DNA from: Planctomycetaceae bacterium
GTDB taxonomy: Bacteria > Planctomycetota > Planctomycetia > Pirellulales > Pirellulaceae
NCBI GenBank assembly: GCA_002724245.1
Contig: PBOG01000148.1
Span: forward strand, 1-51,555
Direction of reading: 5' to 3'
Length of the DNA: 51,555 nt
Positions 36,472 to 49,238 of the stretch are shown here, piece after piece. How positions within the stretch are numbered: position 1 is the first letter of the stretch; every line of letters begins with the position of its first letter. Both the position numbers and the translations under genes were made by a program. Under the pieces are notes generated by a model that was not told the DNA's origin, made no database searches, and was given only the letters and a program-made list of their open reading frames with translations.

Positions 36472-39429
36472 TTATTGACGGTTGCGAACATCCGGGTAGC
36501 GACGATAGCGATCCGTTAACTGGTAGTGGACCTCGTCAACGATCTTCTGCTCCAAGCCAGGGCGAAACGGAGCGGCCCAGTCATGGAAGGTCATCGCACC
36601 ACCTCCTTCGTACCCCCCCTCGCGCAAGACACGTTCCGAAGGAATGTAGCACGGCACATCATTGGCGTACGAGTTGATCCAGACGCGCTGGGGATCCAAT
36701 TCCTGTTTCAGTCTCAATGCATAATCGACAACCACCTCGCCCCCCAGAAAGACAATCGCCAGGCTGTTCCCAAATTTCCATGTCTGGACGGGGAGCGGGA
36801 CTTTGGTCTTGATCACCTCACCACGATCCAAACGATCCAAATGGACCCGGGCATGAAATCCAACGGTCCCGCCACGGTCCGCGTCACGCTGTGCGCGACG
36901 TTCCCACTCAGCGCGACTGGGAAGCGGAGCAAGGTGTAAATCAACTGTCGAAAACATCACATTAAGTGGCCCCTTTAGAGGTCGCAACTCTTGTTGCAGA
37001 AGCCGCCCGACCTCGACACCAATTTCCCGCCCGTGCATTGCGGCAACTTCATCGGGAGGTCCACCACCGCGAACCGGATTCGCATCGGCCCCACAGCCAA
37101 CTGACACCAAGGCAATCGCACCTGGGAAGCTTCGTTGAATGCTCTCCTGCGCATAACCGGCCCAATCACCACTTAGTCGGTTGTGGGAGAGCGTCGTGCA
37201 GTGGCACGCATAACTTAGATAGACAGCACGTAACCTGCCCGCCAGATCTTTGACGACCAGGGCCGGCAGATCATGATCGACTGGACCTCCCTTGGTACGA
37301 CGATTCCGCGCAAATGCAACATTGCCCCGCGCCCATCCCAGGTGAGCCGGCTGCGAATTCTCAAATGCCGAGATGGCAACCTGCTCGAGTTTGTCTATTA
37401 ACTCCTTGGTGTAACGCTCGATGTGTTCGCGGTGTTCCTGAGGAAGCGGATGACAGTAGAGTGTTTCCGACATCCCCGCCAGAATAGGCCCGTTGTGGGT
37501 GTGGGTCGCTGTGATCGAGAGCCGGTCAGGCAGTAGTCCAACTCGGCGCTGCAGCCGTTCTGCCACGTGCGCCCGGAGCGCAGCGGGTACCAGGCAATTA
37601 TCCAGGGTAATCAACAGGGCCGGTTGCCGCTGCGGACTCTGGATCATCATCGCCTTGGCCCACAGCCTCTGTACAACACCTGTCGATTCCGTGACGCGTC
37701 CCGAATAACCACGCAACCGAATCGGGTAATCGGGCGTCACGTCTACCGCTGCCACTCCCACTTGATAGACGGTGGGTTCGTCCCGTTGCGCAGTGGTCAC
37801 CACCTCGACTCCGAGACGATCAGGTTGACGTACCACCACATCTTTCACCGGGTGCAGCGCGAACCAGCGCTGGGAGCCACTCCCTAGTGAACGGATCCCG
37901 ATACGGACCGATTCTCCGGGCGTGACCAGATCGCCAGATAATGACAAGTAGAAGAAGCCTGCCGCATCTTCACCTGATTTCCAGGTAGGACGAAAAAGAA
38001 GACTGGTGTCTCCGTTGTCGCTTTGCCACGAAGTCAAATGCTCGGTGACATCAAATCGCAGCCGTAATTGTCCGTCGATTTCCAGCCCATAACCTTTGGT
38101 CACCGGCTGCGACCGATAGCCAATGGCACCCAGAAAAACCAGGTGGACTTGTTCGTCCGCATCTGGCTGTTGAAGTGGCGGAGTCTCCCACACCAGTCTG
38201 GCATCAATTTTCGTCTGACGGAGATGATAATTAGGAACGACCTTGCCTTCATAGTTGTACCACTCGTCTTCCGCTCCTTGGTTGGAAACAACTGCCGCAA
38301 ACCCTTCCGACGCCGATTCCTGGATGTGTCTCAGGCGGTAATCCGCCAGAGCTTGGCGGAGGCTAAAGCGCGCCGACTCGCCGGGGAGATTGACCGTTTG
38401 CGCCGCCGTGTCATACCAGGCAAGCGTGGTGCGCCCGCGCACGGAAATCGGTGGAATCTCCGGGCTTGCAGGGCCAGCTCGCTCCGCGGCCAGCAGGCGT
38501 GTCGTCCAACCTGCCTCCATCGATTCAAAGAGATACACAGCGTAGCGCAATGCGTCCGAAAAAATGATGTCCTGGTCGCCATCCGCATCAACGTCTACAA
38601 AGCGCAGTCCCGCATCTTCACCGCGATCCGTAACGACAGAGATCCCATCGGGCAACGCAAAAGGCGCTGCCTGCCAGCGACGCTGCTGCTGGTTCCACTG
38701 GAGAATACCTCGGTGCTGACCGCCGCCGGCAATCACCTCACAACAACCATCGCCATCCAGATCACGCAGCTGGACCCCACGGTCATGGCCCGATGACCCG
38801 GTGAGCAGCCGTCGCCCATCCAATTCCAGGCCGATGGTCAAGTGATCAGCAGCCTGCCACTGGCCATCGACAAATTGCCAGGCACCCGTCACGCCAATAC
38901 TGCGGACAAGGATCGTGACTGGTCCCCCTGGTTCAACAATCCCCCAGCGCACGCCGCCGGCACCCGTAGCGACGGGAAATCCGACCTTGGCCCAGGACTC
39001 GTCACGAGTTGACCAAAGATGGGTCTCGGCACGGGTGGCGTTTCGTGTAATCACGTCCAACGCACCATCACCATTCACATCTACGATCGCAGCAGTGGCC
39101 TGACTGGGCAACCAACGCACCATCGTATTTGGATCGCGCCGGAGGTTGTAATCATGCACAGCCTGCAGGACCAGTTCGCTACGTTGCCCAACCCGGGAGA
39201 GGTCAACCAATACGACATCACCAACCAACCTCTGCCCGAACCAGTGTGGCACAATATGATCTGCAAACACACTCCCAATCAGGCATACGTCATGACCGTT
39301 GAGGTACGTGAAACGATTGCTGGACACCGTACGGTTGGCGTTTTGCGCACCTTCAATACAGGTGCTACTGCTGATTATGATCAAAGCGATCAGAACCATT
39401 CGCATCAGCTGTTCGATACGGTCTTGCAT
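36472..39429 (-). CDS. FG-GAP repeat protein fused to a ceramidase-like domain
   Basis: 985-residue exported protein. A hydrophobic N-terminal stretch (MVLIALIIISSSTC) acts as a signal or lipoprotein signal; the ATG at 39429 has a purine-rich stretch upstream, with 39405 an alternative. The first half carries FG-GAP/VCBS propeller repeats with calcium loops DVNGDGALD, DLDGDGCCE and DVDADGDQD, expected to bind calcium and form a propeller. From about residue 560 a ceramidase-like domain follows (VGVAAVDVTPDYPIRLRGY, TATHTHNGPILAG, YLSYACHCTTLSHNRLSGDW, SVGCGADANP), complete with the His motifs. The paralogue downstream has the ceramidase part alone. The fusion suggests attachment of an amidase to a surface or ligand. 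Confidence 0.85.
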   Translation of the reverse strand: MQDRIEQLMRMVLIALIIISSSTCIEGAQNANRTVSSNRFTYLNGHDVCLIGSVFADHIVPHWFGQRLVGDVVLVDLSRVGQRSELVLQAVHDYNLRRDPNTMVRWLPSQATAAIVDVNGDGALDVITRNATRAETHLWSTRDESWAKVGFPVATGAGGVRWGIVEPGGPVTILVRSIGVTGAWQFVDGQWQAADHLTIGLELDGRRLLTGSSGHDRGVQLRDLDGDGCCEVIAGGGQHRGILQWNQQQRRWQAAPFALPDGISVVTDRGEDAGLRFVDVDADGDQDIIFSDALRYAVYLFESMEAGWTTRLLAAERAGPASPEIPPISVRGRTTLAWYDTAAQTVNLPGESARFSLRQALADYRLRHIQESASEGFAAVVSNQGAEDEWYNYEGKVVPNYHLRQTKIDARLVWETPPLQQPDADEQVHLVFLGAIGYRSQPVTKGYGLEIDGQLRLRFDVTEHLTSWQSDNGDTSLLFRPTWKSGEDAAGFFYLSLSGDLVTPGESVRIGIRSLGSGSQRWFALHPVKDVVVRQPDRLGVEVVTTAQRDEPTVYQVGVAAVDVTPDYPIRLRGYSGRVTESTGVVQRLWAKAMMIQSPQRQPALLITLDNCLVPAALRAHVAERLQRRVGLLPDRLSITATHTHNGPILAGMSETLYCHPLPQEHREHIERYTKELIDKLEQVAISAFENSQPAHLGWARGNVAFARNRRTKGGPVDHDLPALVVKDLAGRLRAVYLSYACHCTTLSHNRLSGDWAGYAQESIQRSFPGAIALVSVGCGADANPVRGGGPPDEVAAMHGREIGVEVGRLLQQELRPLKGPLNVMFSTVDLHLAPLPSRAEWERRAQRDADRGGTVGFHARVHLDRLDRGEVIKTKVPLPVQTWKFGNSLAIVFLGGEVVVDYALRLKQELDPQRVWINSYANDVPCYIPSERVLREGGYEGGGAMTFHDWAAPFRPGLEQKIVDEVHYQLTDRYRRYPDVRNRQ

Positions 39430-41475: not shown

Positions 41476-42261
41476 CTACTGTGAAGACCCCAGTTGGGCG
41501 TGAAAGTCCACGTAGAGTTGCCGGGTCGCGTCGCGATTCTGGTCCAGTTCAGTCAGCGTCCAATCTGCTGTCGAGATCGGCGGCAGAAAATAGACATCCA
41601 CACGACCGGTCCCCGAGACAAGATGCATTCCCGAGTCGATCTCTTCAGGGATATGGATGTAAATGGGAACAATATTCGCTCGCAAGCTGGTAGCCAGGTG
41701 AAACGCGCCACGATTGAAATGACCGATTTTACCGGTACGAATACGGCCCCCCTCGGGAGTCAAGTAAACCGATTCACCCGAACGCCGCAGGACCTGGTCA
41801 GCGCGCTGAAAAATCTTCCGACGTTTTCCCGGGAAGTGGCAGGGCACCGTCCAAAAAACACCGATCAGGTACCCAATCAGGCCCAGCGGCAGGATCTTTC
41901 GCAGAAAACCACTGAGAAAATAACGCGTATTGGGGAGGCCCAGTGCCACCGTGGCAAAAACATCCAGAGTTGCCGTATGGTTGGAAATATAGATCGTCTG
42001 CGCCGCCGGCAACGGGAACTCTCGATGGACCACCATCCGCACGCCGCTCAGCCAGAGCGCCATCCGCCCCATGGCCCTGACAAGCACTTCGGCGCAAAAC
42101 CGCCGCGACTGGAAGAGGGTCACAACTGCGGTCATCAGGGTGACAAGGGAACCCACTGTCAGGATCACCGTACCACAGAAACCCAAAACGACAATGCGCA
42201 ACCAACTGCGGGTAGACGTCCGCACCTCGACGTCAGCTGTATTGGCAGAATCCAATGCCAT
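41476..42261 (-). CDS. plsC: PlsC-type lysophospholipid acyltransferase
   Basis: Membrane acyltransferase that adds an acyl chain to a lysophosphatidate-type acceptor. Residues 20-55 are hydrophobic (membrane). The catalytic NHTATLD (94-100) corresponds to the NHx4D signature, and PEGGR (169-173) to the substrate-binding PEGTR motif, with Gly in place of Thr. The start at 42261 is supported by an unusually strong AGGAGGAGG site. It is divergent from the PlsC-desaturase fusion gene (199 bp apart), so the two share a promoter region. The substrate acyl donor cannot be read from sequence. Confidence 0.88.
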   Translation of the reverse strand: MALDSANTADVEVRTSTRSWLRIVVLGFCGTVILTVGSLVTLMTAVVTLFQSRRFCAEVLVRAMGRMALWLSGVRMVVHREFPLPAAQTIYISNHTATLDVFATVALGLPNTRYFLSGFLRKILPLGLIGYLIGVFWTVPCHFPGKRRKIFQRADQVLRRSGESVYLTPEGGRIRTGKIGHFNRGAFHLATSLRANIVPIYIHIPEEIDSGMHLVSGTGRVDVYFLPPISTADWTLTELDQNRDATRQLYVDFHAQLGSSQ

Positions 42262-42265
42262 GAAT

Positions 42266-42274
42266 CCTCCTCCT
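42266..42274 (-). promoter_or_regulatory. strong ribosome-binding site of plsC
   Basis: Reads AGGAGGAGG on the minus strand, ending 4 bases before the ATG. It is the clearest Shine-Dalgarno sequence in the window and fixes the plsC start. Confidence 0.6.
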
Positions 42275-42460
42275 GGAATGCAACCCCGCGGCGCAGGTTA
42301 CCAGGTGGCTTCTGTTCGCAGTCCATCAGCGCAACGGTCGCCGCGCTGAAAAAACAGGCGACTTTCAGTTGTCAATCCTTTACACTAGTTTCCCTGCCGC
42401 ATGCGATGCGGGCAAGTTGACTTCGCCGAGTAAGGATACCGGCAATCCGGTAAGACACAG

Positions 42461-44242
42461 ATGTTTCCGGTGATGAAGAGGAGCTTCCACCGCGGCGTCG
42501 GATTCTGCGCCTACTACGCCAGCTTCTTTTACTTTCTGATTCTCCTTCCCTGCCTCGATCGGCGCGAGACCGATTTACGTTTTCGAGGGCGTCTGAAGCG
42601 GGCGACTCGTTGTGCCCTGAGGGCTTTTGGCGTCGAGATCAATGTGATCGGCGAGGAACACCTCGGAGATGGCAGCAACGCGATCATCGTCGCCAACCAC
42701 TCGTCCTGGTTTGACCAGATGGCGCTGGTCGCGAGTCTCAACGTGCCTGTCGCCTTTGTCGCCAACGAAAAATATTTTCGCTACCCGGGACTGCGCACGG
42801 TGCTGAAAAAGCTCGGCAGTATTCCGGTATTTGGCACCGCCGTCAGCGATAGCCTGCAAAAGTGTCGGCAAGTGCTATCGGAGGGCAAATGGCTGGTCAT
42901 CTATCCAGAGGGAACCCGTTCACCCGCGCTAATGCCTTTCCGCCGCGGGGCTGCCGTACTGGCCAATCAGACCGGTCTCGCAACCCAACCCATTGTGATT
43001 CATGGAACCGAGGCGATACTCCCCAGGAAACATAATTTTCTCCAGGTGAAACCTGGCGTCATCACTCTGGAGATCTTGCCACGAATCCATAAGACGGACC
43101 GCCAGTCAACACAACAGTATATGGCGCGCATCGAGCAGTGTTTTGTAGAACAACCGGATATTCTTCCCAGCCCGGCTGCGCATCGATCACCACATGAGTC
43201 CCAGGCCCACACGACCACACCGCCAGGAACACCGCAGTCAGATTCATGTCCCACGTCACTCTTGATGCCCAACGAGCCGAAGGTGGAGCAACTGCGGTCC
43301 AGTAATCTGGTGGGTGGTTTTTATTTACTCGCGGCGACACTCTTGACCGCCCTGTCGCTCGCGCTCGCGCTATCGGCCCACACCTGGATCTGGCTGGCCG
43401 GCCAGTTCGGATTGGCGGTCGCCATGATCCAGTGGTTTGCGATCCTGCATGAAGCCGGGCACAAGACCTTGTTTCGCACCAGCTGGCTGAACCGCTGGTC
43501 AATCCATGCTGCCGGACTCCTGGCGTGTATTCCAGGCGATTGCTGGCGCCTGGTCCATGCAAAGCACCACTATTGGACCGGCTGGCAGGATCTGGACATG
43601 ACAACGCAAACGCTCGTTCCCCGTAAGCTACACAGGTTTGAACGCCTGGTGCTCAATGTCTGCTGGCGACTGTGGATTCCACTGCCCGCCACACTCTACC
43701 GACTGAATAATTATTGGAATCTCCCGCGTCTGTGGAAGATCTTTCCCCGGCCGCGAGAACGGCGCCTGCTTGTCCTCAATATTATCGGCTACCTCGCTGT
43801 CTATCTGGCGCTGGGAACCTTGCTGGGCTGGGGGTTCGTAGCCCGCACCATCGGCCTCGGCCTGCTGATCACCATGTCGCTGCAGGACCTCCTCATTCTT
43901 AGCCAGCACACACACATCCCCATGGAACTGGCAAACAGCCAGACCGACCCGCACACGCACAATACTGCCCACCCCGTCAAGCCGTTTCCACCCCTGCAAC
44001 AGGAAGTGTTCACGCGTTCCTTGATCTTCCCGCAATGGTTCGCCCGACTGATTCTGCTGAACGTCGATGCCCACAGCCTGCATCACATGCTGCCTCGTGT
44101 CCCCGGTTACCACCTGCACCGCTTGCAGCACCGGAAAACTGCCAACTCGATTCGCTGGTGGAAGTGGGTGCTTCGTGCCAAAAGTATCCCGGGAGAAATT
44201 CTGCTGTTCCAGAACCGTGACCAAACCGGATTCTATTTTTGA
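42461..44242 (+). CDS. fusion of PlsC acyltransferase and membrane fatty-acid desaturase
   Basis: 593-residue fusion. Residues 1-235 are a PlsC acyltransferase (NHSSWFD 79-85, PEGTRSP 149-155) after a short membrane segment. Residues about 235-280 are a Pro/Ser/Thr-rich linker. Residues 283-593 are a di-iron membrane desaturase with the histidine boxes HEAGH (330-334), HAKHH (366-370) and HSLHH (538-542), plus QHTH at 482-485, and hydrophobic helices between. This puts acyl transfer to a glycerol or alcohol backbone and acyl desaturation in one polypeptide. An internal ATG at 43265, in the linker, could also yield the desaturase alone. It begins the five-gene run to 49238; the next gene starts within about 27 bp or overlaps. 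Confidence 0.9.
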   Translation: MFPVMKRSFHRGVGFCAYYASFFYFLILLPCLDRRETDLRFRGRLKRATRCALRAFGVEINVIGEEHLGDGSNAIIVANHSSWFDQMALVASLNVPVAFVANEKYFRYPGLRTVLKKLGSIPVFGTAVSDSLQKCRQVLSEGKWLVIYPEGTRSPALMPFRRGAAVLANQTGLATQPIVIHGTEAILPRKHNFLQVKPGVITLEILPRIHKTDRQSTQQYMARIEQCFVEQPDILPSPAAHRSPHESQAHTTTPPGTPQSDSCPTSLLMPNEPKVEQLRSSNLVGGFYLLAATLLTALSLALALSAHTWIWLAGQFGLAVAMIQWFAILHEAGHKTLFRTSWLNRWSIHAAGLLACIPGDCWRLVHAKHHYWTGWQDLDMTTQTLVPRKLHRFERLVLNVCWRLWIPLPATLYRLNNYWNLPRLWKIFPRPRERRLLVLNIIGYLAVYLALGTLLGWGFVARTIGLGLLITMSLQDLLILSQHTHIPMELANSQTDPHTHNTAHPVKPFPPLQQEVFTRSLIFPQWFARLILLNVDAHSLHHMLPRVPGYHLHRLQHRKTANSIRWWKWVLRAKSIPGEILLFQNRDQTGFYF

Positions 44243-44268
44243 TTGGACCACCGCCCAGTCTGGTTGCC

Positions 44269-44853
44269 ATGACGATACCTGACCCGTTTTTTTGCACCCT
44301 GTTTTTCTTTCTCGCGTTCTTGCTGGCGGGAATCGTACAGACGGTATGGCTGAGAAGCAAAGCCGCACGACGATTCGCCGTCGCCATCGATGCCGGATTT
44401 ACGTTTCGTTCGCGACGGATCTTCGGTGCCAACAAAACGTGGCGAGGATTCGTCGTCATGGTTCCTGCCGCGGGTCTGTCGTTTGTTTTGATGCACCGCT
44501 TATTGCAACCTCTCGACACGACAGGCCAGTCACTGTGGCCTCTTTCACTTGTCCATCTTTTTCTGCTCGGATGCTGGGCAGGTTGTGGATTCATGCTGGG
44601 TGAGCTCCCCAACTCCTTCGTCAAACGACAGTGCGACATCGCCCCCGGAGCGCCTGCCCACCATCCCGTCGCCCAACGTATCTGTTTCCTGGTCGATCAA
44701 GCCGACTCGGTGGTCGGCGGCCTGCTGGCTGTATCTCTTGCCGTACCGGTTCCCAGAGCGACCTGGCTTTGCCTGACGTTTGGAGGCGCGGCAACGCATC
44801 TGGCATTCAACTATGGACTGATGCGGATGGGCCTGAGAGAGCGAGCCGCGTAA
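44269..44853 (+). CDS. CDP-archaeol synthase-like (CarS/DUF46) cytidylyltransferase
   Basis: Multi-pass membrane protein of 194 residues from the ATG at 44269; a TTG at 44239 overlapping the preceding stop is an alternative. The motifs FGANKTWRG (52-60), GELPNSFVKRQ (111-121) and LVDQADSVVG (141-150) are those of the CarS/DUF46 family, which in archaea transfers CMP from CTP to an unsaturated archaetidic acid to give CDP-archaeol. Bacterial relatives are widespread, usually of unknown function, and distinct from CdsA. Here it would make a CDP-activated lipid. It lies between the acyltransferase-desaturase fusion and the PEP-synthase-like gene, tightly packed. Confidence 0.85.
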   Translation: MTIPDPFFCTLFFFLAFLLAGIVQTVWLRSKAARRFAVAIDAGFTFRSRRIFGANKTWRGFVVMVPAAGLSFVLMHRLLQPLDTTGQSLWPLSLVHLFLLGCWAGCGFMLGELPNSFVKRQCDIAPGAPAHHPVAQRICFLVDQADSVVGGLLAVSLAVPVPRATWLCLTFGGAATHLAFNYGLMRMGLRERAA

Positions 44854-44892
44854 GCACCAGCAGTCTCTGCAGCGTGATTGGATGAACGTTGA

Positions 44893-47562
44893 ATGGAATT
44901 GCAAACTAAATTAACCCAACCCGCGCACGTGTTGCCGCTGGACACTCTGGAGGCCCCAGCCCACTGCGGCGCAAAGGCATGGCGACTCGCCCGCATGCAC
45001 CAGTGGGGTTATCCCGTGCCTCCGGCCGTCGTCCTCCATGGCGAGGCCTTCCAGCAGTTGCTCAACGCAACCGCGCTGGGTCATTTCGTGGCGCAGAAAA
45101 CCGACTCACTTTCCCTGGACGATCCTGCGGCGATCGCCGCAGCGGCCGAAGCCATCGAGTCGCGCCTGATCTCTAGTGAACTGCCTGTAGACCTCGTTGA
45201 CGAGATCACCACCGCGACGGCGGAACTGTTAAACCAGGGTCCTGTCGTCGTCCGCAGCTCGGCCTGCGGTGAGGACTCAAACGAAGCCGCCTTTGCGGGA
45301 CAGCTTGACTCGTTCCTCAACGTGCGCACGCTGGAACAGTTACTGACCGCGCTCAAACGTTGCTGGGCATCCTACTGGTCTCATCGCTCTCTCGCTTACC
45401 AGTTGACGCGTGGCATTCAGCTGCAGTCAATGGGAGTCATCATCCAGCAACAAGTCGACGCCCGCTTCGCCGGGGTTCTGTTTACTCGCTCCGTACAACA
45501 CAGCAACCAGGACAGCATGGTCCTCGAATATTGCGAGGGGCTAGGAGACCGCCTGGTTACCGGGGACGTTTCACCGCGACGTCTATTTATCGATCGACAA
45601 GGAACGGTATCTGAGGATCTTGTTTCCTGTATCGAAGACGTCGAGCCGCTCAGCGACGAGCTGCTCCAGCAGCTCGGCTCCCTGGGTACCGCGCTCGAAG
45701 ACGATTTCGAACATCCCCAGGATATCGAATGGTGCGTCGATGGCTGTGACCAACTCTATCTTGTGCAAAGCCGCCCCATCACAACGCTCAGACAATCGTG
45801 CCAGAAACTCGTCTGGTCCAATGCCAACGTGAATGAGAACTTTCCTGATCCAATTTCACCCTTGCTGTATTCCGTCGCCGCTACCGGTTACTACCACTAT
45901 TTTCGCAATCTGGGCATCGCCTTCGGCATCTCGGAAGAACGCATCGACCTGATGGAATACCCGCTGCGCAATCTCGTCGGAGCACATGCTGGCCGACTCT
46001 ACTACAACTTGACCAATATCCACGCGGTGTTGCGGGCAGCTCCCCTCGGTGAGTTTCTGGCAGAGGCCTTCAATCAGTTCGTCGGCGCCGAATCGACCGA
46101 CCGTGATCATCGGGCACCGCGCTGGACCTCTCTGCAACGGGGTCGGCTGCGCGAACTGGCGGAGTCGCTTCGGATCGCCAGCAAGGCGATCCGGAGTCTC
46201 TGGAAAATGCCTCGTGGAATCGCCCGCTTTGAAGCGACTGTGGATGCCTTTGCTGACGACAGTCACCCAGATCGTTTACCGTCACTCGACTGGACAGAGC
46301 TGCTCGCGTTGTGGCGACGCTTTCTGCGTATCCGCAGTCAGTGGACGGAAGCGGCGCTGGCAGACGCGGCGAGCATGATCAGCTATCGACTTACCCAACG
46401 GCTGCTCTCTGCTGAGTTCACCAATGCCGCAGATACCGCCATCGCCAACCGTCTGCTGACGGGCTTGTGTGACATTGTCAGCGGTCTGCCCACAGAACGA
46501 CTGTGGGATTTGTCACGACTGATCCGACAACACGAGTCCCTGACCGCCGCAATCACGCGCGACCCTCCCGATCAGGTCTGGCACCAAATCACATCCAACG
46601 AATCGTTGGAGCCGGTGCGGCGGGCGCTAGAAGAATTCCTGGAAACCTGGGGATTTCGCTGTTCGGGCGAGCTGATGCTGACCCAACCCAGTTACCAAGA
46701 AGACCCGGCCTCGCTGATACCCATACTGGCAACGTACGTCACTCGTAACGGGGAGTCTCCGGAGGAACACCTGCAACGACAGCAGCATCGTCGAGAACGG
46801 GAAACAGAGCGCGTCCTCGGCGTGTTGCGAACAAAAAAACTGGCGTCTTTCCTGCCATGGCCCAGAAAAGATAGCGTTGCCCGTCGTCTCATTCATTGGA
46901 CTCAACGTAGTGTCGCCTGCCGCGAGCGTGCACGTCTGAAGCAGGCCTTGCTGTACAGTCGCTTCCGGCGGCTGGCTCTGACCGTGGGTAAATCATTCGC
47001 CGATCGCAACCTGCTACACACCCCGGAGGATATTTTTTACCTGACCTGTGAGGAAGTCGAACAGATCATCAATCGCGCTGCCATGCTCCCGATGACCGCA
47101 GCCGACCTGGCAAAACTCCGCCGTGCCGAACTGGCATCACTCAGCCAATACCGGCCGCCGGATCACATTGAACTGACATCTGGTCAATTCTGGGAACCTT
47201 CTGCAGCTGGCACTCCGGCAGACAGCAGTGACGAACCACAACGCCACCTCCACGGGACCGCCGTTTCGGGAGGTACCATTGTCGGTCGGGCAATCGTGTT
47301 AACCGATCCCAGACAGTTTACAGAAGTTCAGGAAGGAGACCTGCTGGTCACCCGGCAAACCGACCCCGGCTGGGGACCAATCCTGTTTCTCGTCCGGGGC
47401 CTGGTGATGGAGCGCGGTGGAATGCTATCCCACGGTGCTATTCTCGCCCGCGAGTACGGGATTCCCACGGTGGTCGGAATCCCCAACGCAACCGAGTGTA
47501 TTACCAGTGGCGACATCCTGCGTATCGATGGAGACCGTGGCCTTGTCGAAGTCATTGGGTAA
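44893..47562 (+). CDS. PEP-synthase/rifampin-phosphotransferase-like dikinase
   Basis: 889-residue phosphotransferase with the three-part layout of rifampin phosphotransferase and PEP synthase: an ATP-binding PPDK domain at the N-terminus (RSSACGEDSNEAAFAGQLDS, about 119-138; LVQSRPIT), a long helical middle domain, and a swivelling His domain at the C-terminus with the phosphorylated His847 in GGMLSHGAILAREYGIPT. Known members move the beta-phosphate of ATP to a substrate hydroxyl or pyruvate. The short middle domain and lack of a PEP-type barrel suggest an alcohol acceptor. Position between a CarS-like and a UbiA-like gene, and not next to resistance or gluconeogenic genes, suggests a lipid alcohol; that is inference. 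Confidence 0.85.
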   Translation: MELQTKLTQPAHVLPLDTLEAPAHCGAKAWRLARMHQWGYPVPPAVVLHGEAFQQLLNATALGHFVAQKTDSLSLDDPAAIAAAAEAIESRLISSELPVDLVDEITTATAELLNQGPVVVRSSACGEDSNEAAFAGQLDSFLNVRTLEQLLTALKRCWASYWSHRSLAYQLTRGIQLQSMGVIIQQQVDARFAGVLFTRSVQHSNQDSMVLEYCEGLGDRLVTGDVSPRRLFIDRQGTVSEDLVSCIEDVEPLSDELLQQLGSLGTALEDDFEHPQDIEWCVDGCDQLYLVQSRPITTLRQSCQKLVWSNANVNENFPDPISPLLYSVAATGYYHYFRNLGIAFGISEERIDLMEYPLRNLVGAHAGRLYYNLTNIHAVLRAAPLGEFLAEAFNQFVGAESTDRDHRAPRWTSLQRGRLRELAESLRIASKAIRSLWKMPRGIARFEATVDAFADDSHPDRLPSLDWTELLALWRRFLRIRSQWTEAALADAASMISYRLTQRLLSAEFTNAADTAIANRLLTGLCDIVSGLPTERLWDLSRLIRQHESLTAAITRDPPDQVWHQITSNESLEPVRRALEEFLETWGFRCSGELMLTQPSYQEDPASLIPILATYVTRNGESPEEHLQRQQHRRERETERVLGVLRTKKLASFLPWPRKDSVARRLIHWTQRSVACRERARLKQALLYSRFRRLALTVGKSFADRNLLHTPEDIFYLTCEEVEQIINRAAMLPMTAADLAKLRRAELASLSQYRPPDHIELTSGQFWEPSAAGTPADSSDEPQRHLHGTAVSGGTIVGRAIVLTDPRQFTEVQEGDLLVTRQTDPGWGPILFLVRGLVMERGGMLSHGAILAREYGIPTVVGIPNATECITSGDILRIDGDRGLVEVIG

Positions 47563-48208
47563 TGACATTTACGCCTACCTGCAGACCCGTCTGTTGATGC
47601 CGCGGATTGCAGCGCTCGGAACGCTCGTCCTGCTCGCCGCCTGGTGTCATTCGGTGCCACAATCTCTGCCTCCACACTGGGGACACGCACTGATTGACAT
47701 GCTCCTGGCAGCGTTACTGTTGGCGCAGTTTCGTATTTGGGACGACCTCGCCGATGTCCCAATAGACCGCCGTGTCGATCCCAACCGCACTCTCTGCACG
47801 ACGTTGCATCGCAAGGCGTTTCAGCTGATCGTAATCGGACTGGCAACCACAGCTGCTGGACTCCTTGTCAGTACGGCCGATCCCGCTGCACCAGGTCTGC
47901 TCGGAGGGCTTACACTGCTGATGGTCTGCTGGTACTGGTTCCCTCCACGGTCCAGTTGGAGCGGACTGAATTACCACGTCGTCCTGCTCAAGTATCCGGC
48001 ATTTATCCTCTTGATTGACAGCCGCCGAGCCCCACTCTCTGGCGACACGACAATTCTCCAGACAATCGTCGGTGTCTATCTGCTGCTCTGTGTATTCGAG
48101 GTTTGCCATGATCGCATGTTGCGACAACGCACTCGCTTTCGTCTGGTGGCAGGGGTCGAAGCGTGCCTGCTCCTCTGCGTTGCGTTCACCACCGGACTCC
48201 TGCCGTGA
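47528..48208 (+). CDS. UbiA-like membrane prenyltransferase homologue
   Basis: Polytopic membrane protein of about 226 residues with several hydrophobic helices. The segment FRIWDDLADVPIDRRVDPNR carries DDxxDxxxD, the first magnesium/diphosphate-binding motif of UbiA-family prenyltransferases. The second motif is degenerate: only ExxxD in FEVCHDRML is visible, and the length is below the usual 280-300. The start is uncertain: an ATG at 47528 overlaps the preceding gene by 35 bp, and a TTG at 47555 would overlap it by 8. Either implies translational coupling. Members transfer isoprenoid chains to aromatic or glycerol acceptors, or hydrolyse prenyl diphosphates. Confidence 0.7.
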   Translation: METVALSKSLGNDIYAYLQTRLLMPRIAALGTLVLLAAWCHSVPQSLPPHWGHALIDMLLAALLLAQFRIWDDLADVPIDRRVDPNRTLCTTLHRKAFQLIVIGLATTAAGLLVSTADPAAPGLLGGLTLLMVCWYWFPPRSSWSGLNYHVVLLKYPAFILLIDSRRAPLSGDTTILQTIVGVYLLLCVFEVCHDRMLRQRTRFRLVAGVEACLLLCVAFTTGLLP

Positions 48209-48275: not shown

Positions 48276-49238
48276 ATGCCAGCCACAATGACTGGGCCTC
48301 CCACGTCCGACCAGTTTGAAGAGGTATCGTGCTACGCATGCGGTGAGTCGTCCTGCCACGACCTGCTCACCGGCCAGGACGACCTGACAGGCAAGCCGGG
48401 TGACTTTCGCTTTGTCACCTGTGCGAGCTGCGGTCTGGCGTACCAGTCGCCACGCCTGACGATCAAGCACATCGGCGCCTACTACGACGACGAGTACATC
48501 GCACATCGCAAAGAAACTGAGTGGGGCATCCTGACGCGATTCTATCAACGTGGCATGGACAAACATGATCGCCAGAAAGACCAGCTCGTATCACGGTATG
48601 TGCAACTGCAGCCAGGCGACCGTGTACTGGATGTCGGCTGTGGCTCCGGGTCGTTTCTACAGCGACTACGACAGCGGTATCAGGTCGCCGCGGGTGGCGT
48701 AGATTTCAAGAACCTCACCCACCTCCCTTTTTTCGATGGCGTCGAATTTCACGAAGGTCTGTTCTACGAGCAACCACTTCCGCAGGACCATTACGACTTG
48801 GTAACCATGTGGCATTTTTTAGAGCACGACTACGACCCCGTTCGCACCCTGGAAACAACCGCACGCATCCTCAAGCCTGGAGGACATCTGGTCGTGGAAG
48901 TCCCCAGGCTGGATTGTGTGAGCTATCGCTTGTTCGGCAAGCGGTGGCCTGGCGTACAAGCACCCCAGCATACGGTTTTGTACTCCAAGAAGATGCTCCT
49001 GAAATTTGCTGACCGCTGTGGCTTGGAACGTGTCGATTACCTTCCTTACGGCGCATTCCCGGCCTACTTCTATCTGTTCGCCGGCACGGCTTTCAAGATT
49101 CGCAAAGGCCAGGGCATCAACTTGCGAAAAGCAATCTACCCCTATTTTCTAGGGCAACTTCTGCTGACACCTGTGCTCTGGTTTGAGAGGTACTTGAACC
49201 TCGCTATGCAAACCATCATCTACCGAAAACCCGTCTGA
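48276..49238 (+). CDS. zinc-ribbon class I SAM-dependent methyltransferase
   Basis: 320-residue methyltransferase. The N-terminus has CxxC pairs at Cys19/Cys22 and Cys49/Cys52, forming a zinc-ribbon-like module. The SAM-binding motif VLDVGCGSGSF is at 117-127, with LVTMWHFLEHDYDP and HLVVEVPRLD downstream as in Methyltransf_23 proteins. The C-terminus is hydrophobic (AIYPYFLGQLLLTPVLW), suggesting membrane association. Such ribbon-methyltransferases commonly modify sugars or small lipids. It lies 67 bp after the UbiA-like gene on the same strand and completes the cluster. Confidence 0.85.
   Translation: MPATMTGPPTSDQFEEVSCYACGESSCHDLLTGQDDLTGKPGDFRFVTCASCGLAYQSPRLTIKHIGAYYDDEYIAHRKETEWGILTRFYQRGMDKHDRQKDQLVSRYVQLQPGDRVLDVGCGSGSFLQRLRQRYQVAAGGVDFKNLTHLPFFDGVEFHEGLFYEQPLPQDHYDLVTMWHFLEHDYDPVRTLETTARILKPGGHLVVEVPRLDCVSYRLFGKRWPGVQAPQHTVLYSKKMLLKFADRCGLERVDYLPYGAFPAYFYLFAGTAFKIRKGQGINLRKAIYPYFLGQLLLTPVLWFERYLNLAMQTIIYRKPV

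Follow-up and report, generated by a model that had tools for sequence, protein, structure and literature searches.

The window analysed here is a stretch of 51,555 nucleotides that forms part of a 7.8 Mb planctomycete genome (G000). At positions 42461-44242 of its forward strand, a single frame of 593 residues, stop-free throughout in the ORF reading, joins a PlsC-type acyltransferase part (PlsC1) to a membrane desaturase part, and the flanking genes are predicted to act on lipids. The features of this locus are listed below.

41476..42261, minus strand: PlsC2, second predicted acyltransferase, divergent from the fusion gene; orthologs lie in the same operon of unfused relatives
42461..44242, plus strand: PlsC1–desaturase fusion gene, 593 aa, stop codon counted in the coordinates; architecture repeated in loci L048-L053
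42461..43144, plus strand: PlsC1 acyltransferase part, residues 1-228 (Pfam, motifs, model fold, tree)
42695-42715, plus strand: motif I NHSSWFD of the PlsC1 part
42905-42922, plus strand: PEGTRS motif of the PlsC1 part
43145..43291, plus strand: linker, residues 229-277, in frame in all seven fused genes compared
43292..44239, plus strand: membrane desaturase part, residues 278-593 (Pfam, model, motifs)
43448-43462, plus strand: HEAGH box of the desaturase part
43556-43570, plus strand: HAKHH box of the desaturase part
44072-44086, plus strand: HSLHH box of the desaturase part
44239..44853, plus strand: CarS-like gene (CDP-archaeol synthase family), likely start ATG 44269
44893..47562, plus strand: PEP-synthase-like dikinase, PPDK_N and PEP-utilizers domains
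47417..48208, plus strand: UbiA-like membrane protein, likely start near 47543 (METVALSKS), because the long ORF overlaps the dikinase
48276..49238, plus strand: SAM methyltransferase, conserved more strongly than any other operon gene

The sequence-only reading of this DNA had placed an acyltransferase and a desaturase in one uninterrupted frame, and this was confirmed, with NHSSWFD, PEGTRS, HEAGH, HAKHH and HSLHH all found as quoted. The predicted structure of the fusion protein had a mean pLDDT of 79.9 and a pTM of 0.56; the two parts were mostly well modelled, and low-pLDDT stretches outside the linker were found at residues 149-159, 373-377 and 486-504. Over positions 42200-44950, no promoter-like site was detected (0.9 expected from shuffles) and two terminator-like sites were detected (2.6 expected from shuffles).

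The N-terminal part matched Acyltransferase (PF01553) in Pfam at residues 60-180 with 80.6 bits against a cut-off of 23. LPA-type acyltransferase chemistry relies on the His-Asp pair of the NHxxxxD motif; NHxSW(F/L)D and PEGTRS were present in all seven fused proteins aligned, and also in L055, a related locus in which the acyltransferase and the desaturase are two genes. Residues 2-238 of the model superposed on PlsC of Thermotoga maritima (5kym) with a Z-score of 22.9 (229 residues aligned, 2.8 Å). The fusion protein thus shares with PlsC the motifs, the fold across the entire N-terminal part and a place in a lipid operon, but differs in carrying a C-terminal desaturase and in scoring under the NCBIfam AGP_acyltrn cut-off (TIGR00530, 68.4 versus 102.95 bits). 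In the acyltransferase tree, PlsC1 formed a clade (99/97) separate from the other planctomycete acyltransferases included. Seven other PF01553 matches and at least five other PF00487 matches were found in G000, indicating that the fusion is hardly the sole copy of either activity in its own genome.

The C-terminal part matched FA_desaturase (PF00487) at residues 311-558 with 76.8 bits against a cut-off of 29.7. HEAGH and HA(K/R)HH were conserved in 7/7 fused proteins aligned, and HxLHH in all six that reach that region, L052 stopping at a contig end. Four long helices were modelled (residues 282-303, 308-333, 431-455 and 457-482), and model residues 272-589 superposed on chain K of 8xks, an entry known by its title, with a Z-score of 22.9 (296 residues aligned, 3.3 Å). 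The next structural matches were AlkB alkane hydroxylase (Z 13.6) and, at only Z 5.3, stearoyl-CoA desaturase 4zyo. None of the NCBIfam desaturase models reached its cut-off with this part; the sole match was the DesA-type delta-5 model (NF052548, 27.3 bits versus a cut-off of 500). Desaturases joined to cytochrome b5 are already known, as described in the accessible portion of PMC5037126; the planctomycete fusion shares with them the three His boxes, PF00487 membership and the joining of a desaturase to a partner domain, but the domain joined to the desaturase is an acyltransferase instead of an electron donor.

The linker had been described as proline-rich, and in the window it is rich in Pro, Ser and Thr. 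Its core (residues 234-269) had a pLDDT below 50, and judging by the model this low-confidence tether between the domains is probably disordered. Linker length varied among the seven fused genes (49, 110, 104, 104, 25, 106 and 65 aa), and in all seven the alternative two frames contained stops. In the three closest pairs, linker dN was 0.38-0.56 compared with 0.05-0.10 for the domains, approximately 6-8-fold higher, and linker dN/dS was about 0.65, 0.26 and 0.48, all below 1, the linker dS of the middle pair being 2.1, near saturation; two further pairs were partly saturated. On these substitution patterns, the linker evolves like coding DNA under loose constraint and is evidently translated. 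It had also been proposed that an ATG in the linker might yield the desaturase alone. This ATG is present at 43265, but no Shine-Dalgarno sequence was seen ahead of it, L051 and L052 lack Met in the linker and in the 10 residues after it, and the other four relatives have linker Met at no common position. The internal start, which is not conserved among the fused relatives, is therefore unsupported.

Based on a scan of genome contigs, we identified 11 related loci, in records labelled Rhodopirellula, Rubripirellula, Schlesneria, Mariniblastus and other Planctomycetota. Both parts lie in one frame at six of them (L048, L049, L050, L051, L052 and L053, with L052 cut by a contig end), L054 holds the linker and the desaturase at a contig edge, L055 has two genes, and L056, L057 and L058 have the desaturase without the PlsC1 part. 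Within the same family, 11/241 genomes matched the fusion at E 1e-25, a count that overlaps with that of the 11 loci. Seven of these genomes carry both parts (G000, G589-G593 and G598, of which G589 and G591 are broken by contig ends), G602 has a desaturase fragment only, and G410, G537 and G543 have the desaturase only. G591 was considered as a split version and rejected, both pieces reaching contig ends. A first sample of 59 relatives besides G000 gave no full-length match, and the same-genus genomes G001 and G002 (81% and 82% complete) gave no fusion. In the plasmid collection, no DNA match to the fusion locus was found; at the protein level 50 records matched the fusion partly, and none covered 80% of it in one place. 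No other acyltransferase–desaturase fusion was found in 20 fetched frames, which comprised all 19 PF00487 matches of at least 500 aa among the matches listed (the strongest of 251 genomes) and the acyltransferase match G424; the desaturase profile recovered 12 of those 19 desaturases, so that a fusion may have been missed. On these sequence comparisons, the fusion is real, conserved and rare.

The recurrent companions of the desaturase are the CarS-like gene, the PEP-synthase-like dikinase, the UbiA-like gene, the methyltransferase and PlsC2. The operon methyltransferase was detected at E 1e-60 in 8/392 Planctomycetota genomes, all eight of which carry the desaturase; the desaturase also occurs in a ninth genome, G192, whose contig is short and in which the methyltransferase was not detected. 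L087 and L088 showed no CarS gene close to the desaturase, and L051 has the fused gene with no operon genes on its 11 kb contig. In the dikinase, no Pfam domain beyond PPDK_N and PEP-utilizers was found. Several unfused operons extend into genes for a fatty-acyl-AMP ligase and for an ACP-reductase-kinase protein; among 20 genomes searched, the latter was whole or nearly so in G537, G543, G410 and G380, in each of which both genes adjoin the operon. At E 1e-8 this protein had no match in G000, and in the five other fused genomes only a part match to the reductase was found, in G598.

Several variations in gene content were observed around the operon. In G064 (L084:1118-4123), the desaturase gene lies between PEP-mutase-like and phosphonopyruvate-decarboxylase-like genes, both under NCBIfam cut-offs, with the remaining operon divergent beside it; these phosphonate-type neighbours make a link to phosphonolipids possible. 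In L050:841-4916, L077 (L049) and L074 (L053), three genes come after PlsC2: a small one, one for a radical SAM protein that approaches the TrsS/Tes (tetraether synthase) models without reaching their cut-offs, and one for a homolog of prolipoprotein diacylglyceryl transferase; none of the three had a match in the window. Between PlsC2 and the fusion gene, L050 (6209-7279, minus strand) and L052 (6244-7317, minus strand) carry a further, distantly related FA_desaturase, of which a short piece is left at L077:6990-7337 (plus strand), the same locus as L049. The window also encodes, at 36472-39429 on the minus strand, a protein of 985 residues that combines a neutral ceramidase domain with a stretch of FG-GAP repeats.

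With respect to the origin of the fusion, the gene order in L055 is PlsC1, CDP-alcohol phosphatidyltransferase, desaturase, CarS-like and dikinase, and the phosphatidyltransferase directly precedes the desaturase in L056 and L057 as well. In a four-gene tree built from PlsC1, the desaturase, CarS and the dikinase, to which L051 and L052 contributed no CarS or dikinase data, the eight fused rows formed one clade (97/99) with the split L055 as sister. The CarS and dikinase tree, made without the two fused parts, gave 99/99 for six fused rows, the joined tree of PlsC1 and desaturase gave 70/61 for the fused clade, and the desaturase-only tree placed the eight fused rows together at 83/76, excluding L055. 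In the acyltransferase-only tree, L055 was nested within the fused loci and the fused L051 fell outside (98/95 for those seven rows). Given the L055 gene order and its sister position in the four-gene tree, the fusion probably arose once, via loss of the intervening phosphatidyltransferase gene. Because the single-part trees are weaker or conflicting, L051 may instead have acquired its fusion independently, or the L055 genes may have separated later.

We also considered whether the phosphatidyltransferase had been relocated elsewhere in the genome. PF01066 proteins number two in G000, four in fused G598 and three in fused G593, and two and three in unfused G537 and G543, respectively, so that the bare count proves nothing. 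Relocation was rejected for both G000 copies and for the weakly scoring additional members, two in G598 and one in G593, which are not orthologs of the operon copy: the best of these five showed 45% identity over 57 residues, whereas operon copies (L055 versus L080 and L081) showed 42-45% over 208-212 residues. The comparison covered these five proteins and left out the strong copies of G598 and G593 and the copies of G590 and G592. No credible remnant of the phosphatidyltransferase was found in six linkers, the best hit being at E 0.009 on the reverse strand of L048.

A second fusion was identified in G076 (L090), where a frame of 548 residues joins the acyltransferase PlsC2 to the operon desaturase within a related operon containing CarS-like, dikinase and methyltransferase genes and a UbiA-like candidate. 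The acyltransferase of G076 grouped with PlsC2 (13 rows, 100/99) and not with PlsC1, and its placement depends on a long branch in the desaturase and acyltransferase trees alike. From these trees, two joining events seem to have involved the operon desaturase, each with a different acyltransferase, the second case being known from one genome that is the sole representative of its order and class in the set. Such a second joining, to another acyltransferase of the operon, fits desaturation coupled to glycerolipid acylation. In the same region of G076 (L090:10039-12345, minus strand), an APH-type kinase domain is fused to HMG-CoA reductase, and in L094:3107-6061 (plus strand), L096:3269-5983 (plus strand) and L097:14822-17383 (minus strand) an APH-type kinase is fused to ACP and an acyl-thioester reductase. 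L090 and L094 have related kinase parts (E 1e-23), and the combination of reductase and kinase suggests that a chain alcohol is made and then phosphorylated.

On balance, we lean towards the view that the fusion is a genuine two-activity membrane enzyme, which adds an acyl chain to a lysoglycerolipid and introduces a double bond into a glycerolipid-bound chain. The N-terminal PlsC1 would transfer an acyl chain onto the free hydroxyl of a lysoglycerolipid, and the C-terminal di-iron desaturase, on a tether of 25-110 residues, would desaturate a chain carried by that glycerolipid or by a related one. PlsC and desaturases work at the cytoplasmic face of the membrane; by analogy the two parts would share this face, and both reactions would occur there. 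Both activities are predicted, and we infer that the desaturase substrate is an acyl-lipid rather than acyl-CoA or acyl-ACP and that tethering benefits the chemistry. The enzyme would serve a dedicated lipid operon rather than bulk membrane synthesis. The coupling of acylation and desaturation envisaged in the sequence-only reading is in line with two intact conserved domains, the tether, the lipid operon and the second fusion, while the lone desaturase from an internal start is unsupported; channelling of the acyl chain between the two parts is plausible.

Fusion by deletion may, however, have occurred without chemical gain. In such a case, the two parts would be independent operon enzymes with different substrates, joined by neutral deletion of the gene between them, or joined simply to equalise their amounts. 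The phosphatidyltransferase that separates the parts in L055, the sister of the fused clade, and adjoins the desaturase in L056 and L057 fits this explanation, as do the long, fast-evolving linker and the finding that neither G000 PF01066 protein is an ortholog of the operon copy. Passive joining accounts less readily for both active sites being intact in every fused protein aligned, for the fused gene of L051 on a contig without the operon, and for the joining of the same desaturase a second time, to a different acyltransferase; we regard it as a serious but rather unlikely alternative.

It is considerably less likely that the desaturase part is another di-iron enzyme, such as a hydroxylase or a desaturase of ether-linked alkyl or isoprenoid chains (for instance, one that forms vinyl ethers and is unrelated to CarF). 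The UbiA-like and CarS-like neighbours, the fatty-acyl-AMP ligase and ACP-reductase-kinase protein of several unfused operons, and the AlkB hydroxylases among the structural matches point in that direction, but a similar fold does not establish function, and the part belongs to PF00487 with a DesA-type delta-5 model as its sole, far sub-threshold NCBIfam desaturase match. Finally, although the parts are separate in L055 and the desaturase stands alone in other relatives, a joining of two genes by sequencing or assembly error is extremely improbable, since the check for a missed stop against other assemblies gave six further loci (L048-L053), all different records with the same frame and differing linkers, and linker dN/dS is below 1.

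The neighbouring genes were compared with ether-lipid pathways. The CarS-like gene matched PF01864 with 46.8 bits against a cut-off of 22, but missed the cut-off of the NCBIfam equivalog NF003114 (52.3 versus 148 bits). The UbiA-like protein scored 21.5 bits with PF01040, under the gathering cut-off of 34.2 bits, and the Asp-rich first motif DDxxDxxxDR is kept in most rows of its alignment. In a PDB profile comparison extending to E 1, its sole match was DGGGP synthase (6m31, E 0.017), which was also the first Foldseek match of its model, again at E 0.017, with no Foldseek match below 0.001. The model aligned with UbiA structures at Z 12.4-14.2, soluble prenyl synthases reaching 13.6; by Z, DGGGP synthase was level with other UbiA and prenyl synthases. 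The phosphatidyltransferases of L055 and L056 scored best with the archaetidylserine synthase model (74.6 and 92.9 bits against a cut-off of 240). The operon shares with the late archaeal ether-lipid pathway the CarS family and a UbiA-like protein for which DGGGP synthase leads by Foldseek and PDB profile but is level with others by Z; it differs in having acyltransferases, and no GGGP synthase over the cut-off was found in 18 genomes, where G064 and G380 gave two sub-threshold matches.

The elb ether-lipid operon of myxobacteria offers a second comparison. As given in the accessible part of PMC9131029, its ElbD contains fatty-acyl-AMP ligase, ACP and acyl-reductase domains. Several unfused relatives share with the elb operon, as far as that part describes it, an AMP ligase and an ACP-reductase protein beside a PlsC-type acyltransferase, but differ in having separate proteins, an APH-type kinase domain, and CarS-like, dikinase and UbiA-like genes. 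Judging by the ACP-reductase protein, which gave no match there at the threshold above, G000 would lack an elb-type cluster of this kind.

Taken as a hypothesis from gene content, these comparisons suggest that the operon makes an unusual, possibly ether-containing phospholipid. We tentatively propose, while considering it unlikely, that the fusion is part of a bacterial route, so far undescribed, by which hybrid ether-ester phospholipids would be made, with archaeal-type late steps acting on bacterial chains. In this route, a chain alcohol would be phosphorylated by the dikinase generally, and by the APH-type kinase in some unfused relatives; the DGGGP-synthase-like UbiA enzyme would couple the chain to a glycerol phosphate through an ether bond; ester chains would come from PlsC1 and PlsC2; the tethered desaturase would act on the product in place; and activation with CTP by the CarS-like protein would be followed by addition of the head group via a phosphatidyltransferase. 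If true, archaeal-type late ether-lipid steps would run without GGGP synthase.

No description of this fusion or operon was found in a literature search that had most subscription journals outside its reach, and the accessible portions of PMC9131029, PMC9426513, PMC11868695, PMC11150832 and PMC7852524, on ether lipids and related work, gave no account of either. Automatic annotation of the architecture may exist in public databases, because the sequences are public. The component enzyme kinds are known. According to the accessible part of PMC11868695, Planctomycetota have unusual lipids not yet accounted for by known genes, and the gene content of this small, rare operon points to an unfamiliar planctomycete membrane lipid. 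If the preferred two-activity reading holds, the fusion would represent a natural coupling of glycerolipid acylation and desaturation, seemingly evolved twice, and would offer a direct model in which to study whether the lipid just made serves as substrate for a membrane desaturase.
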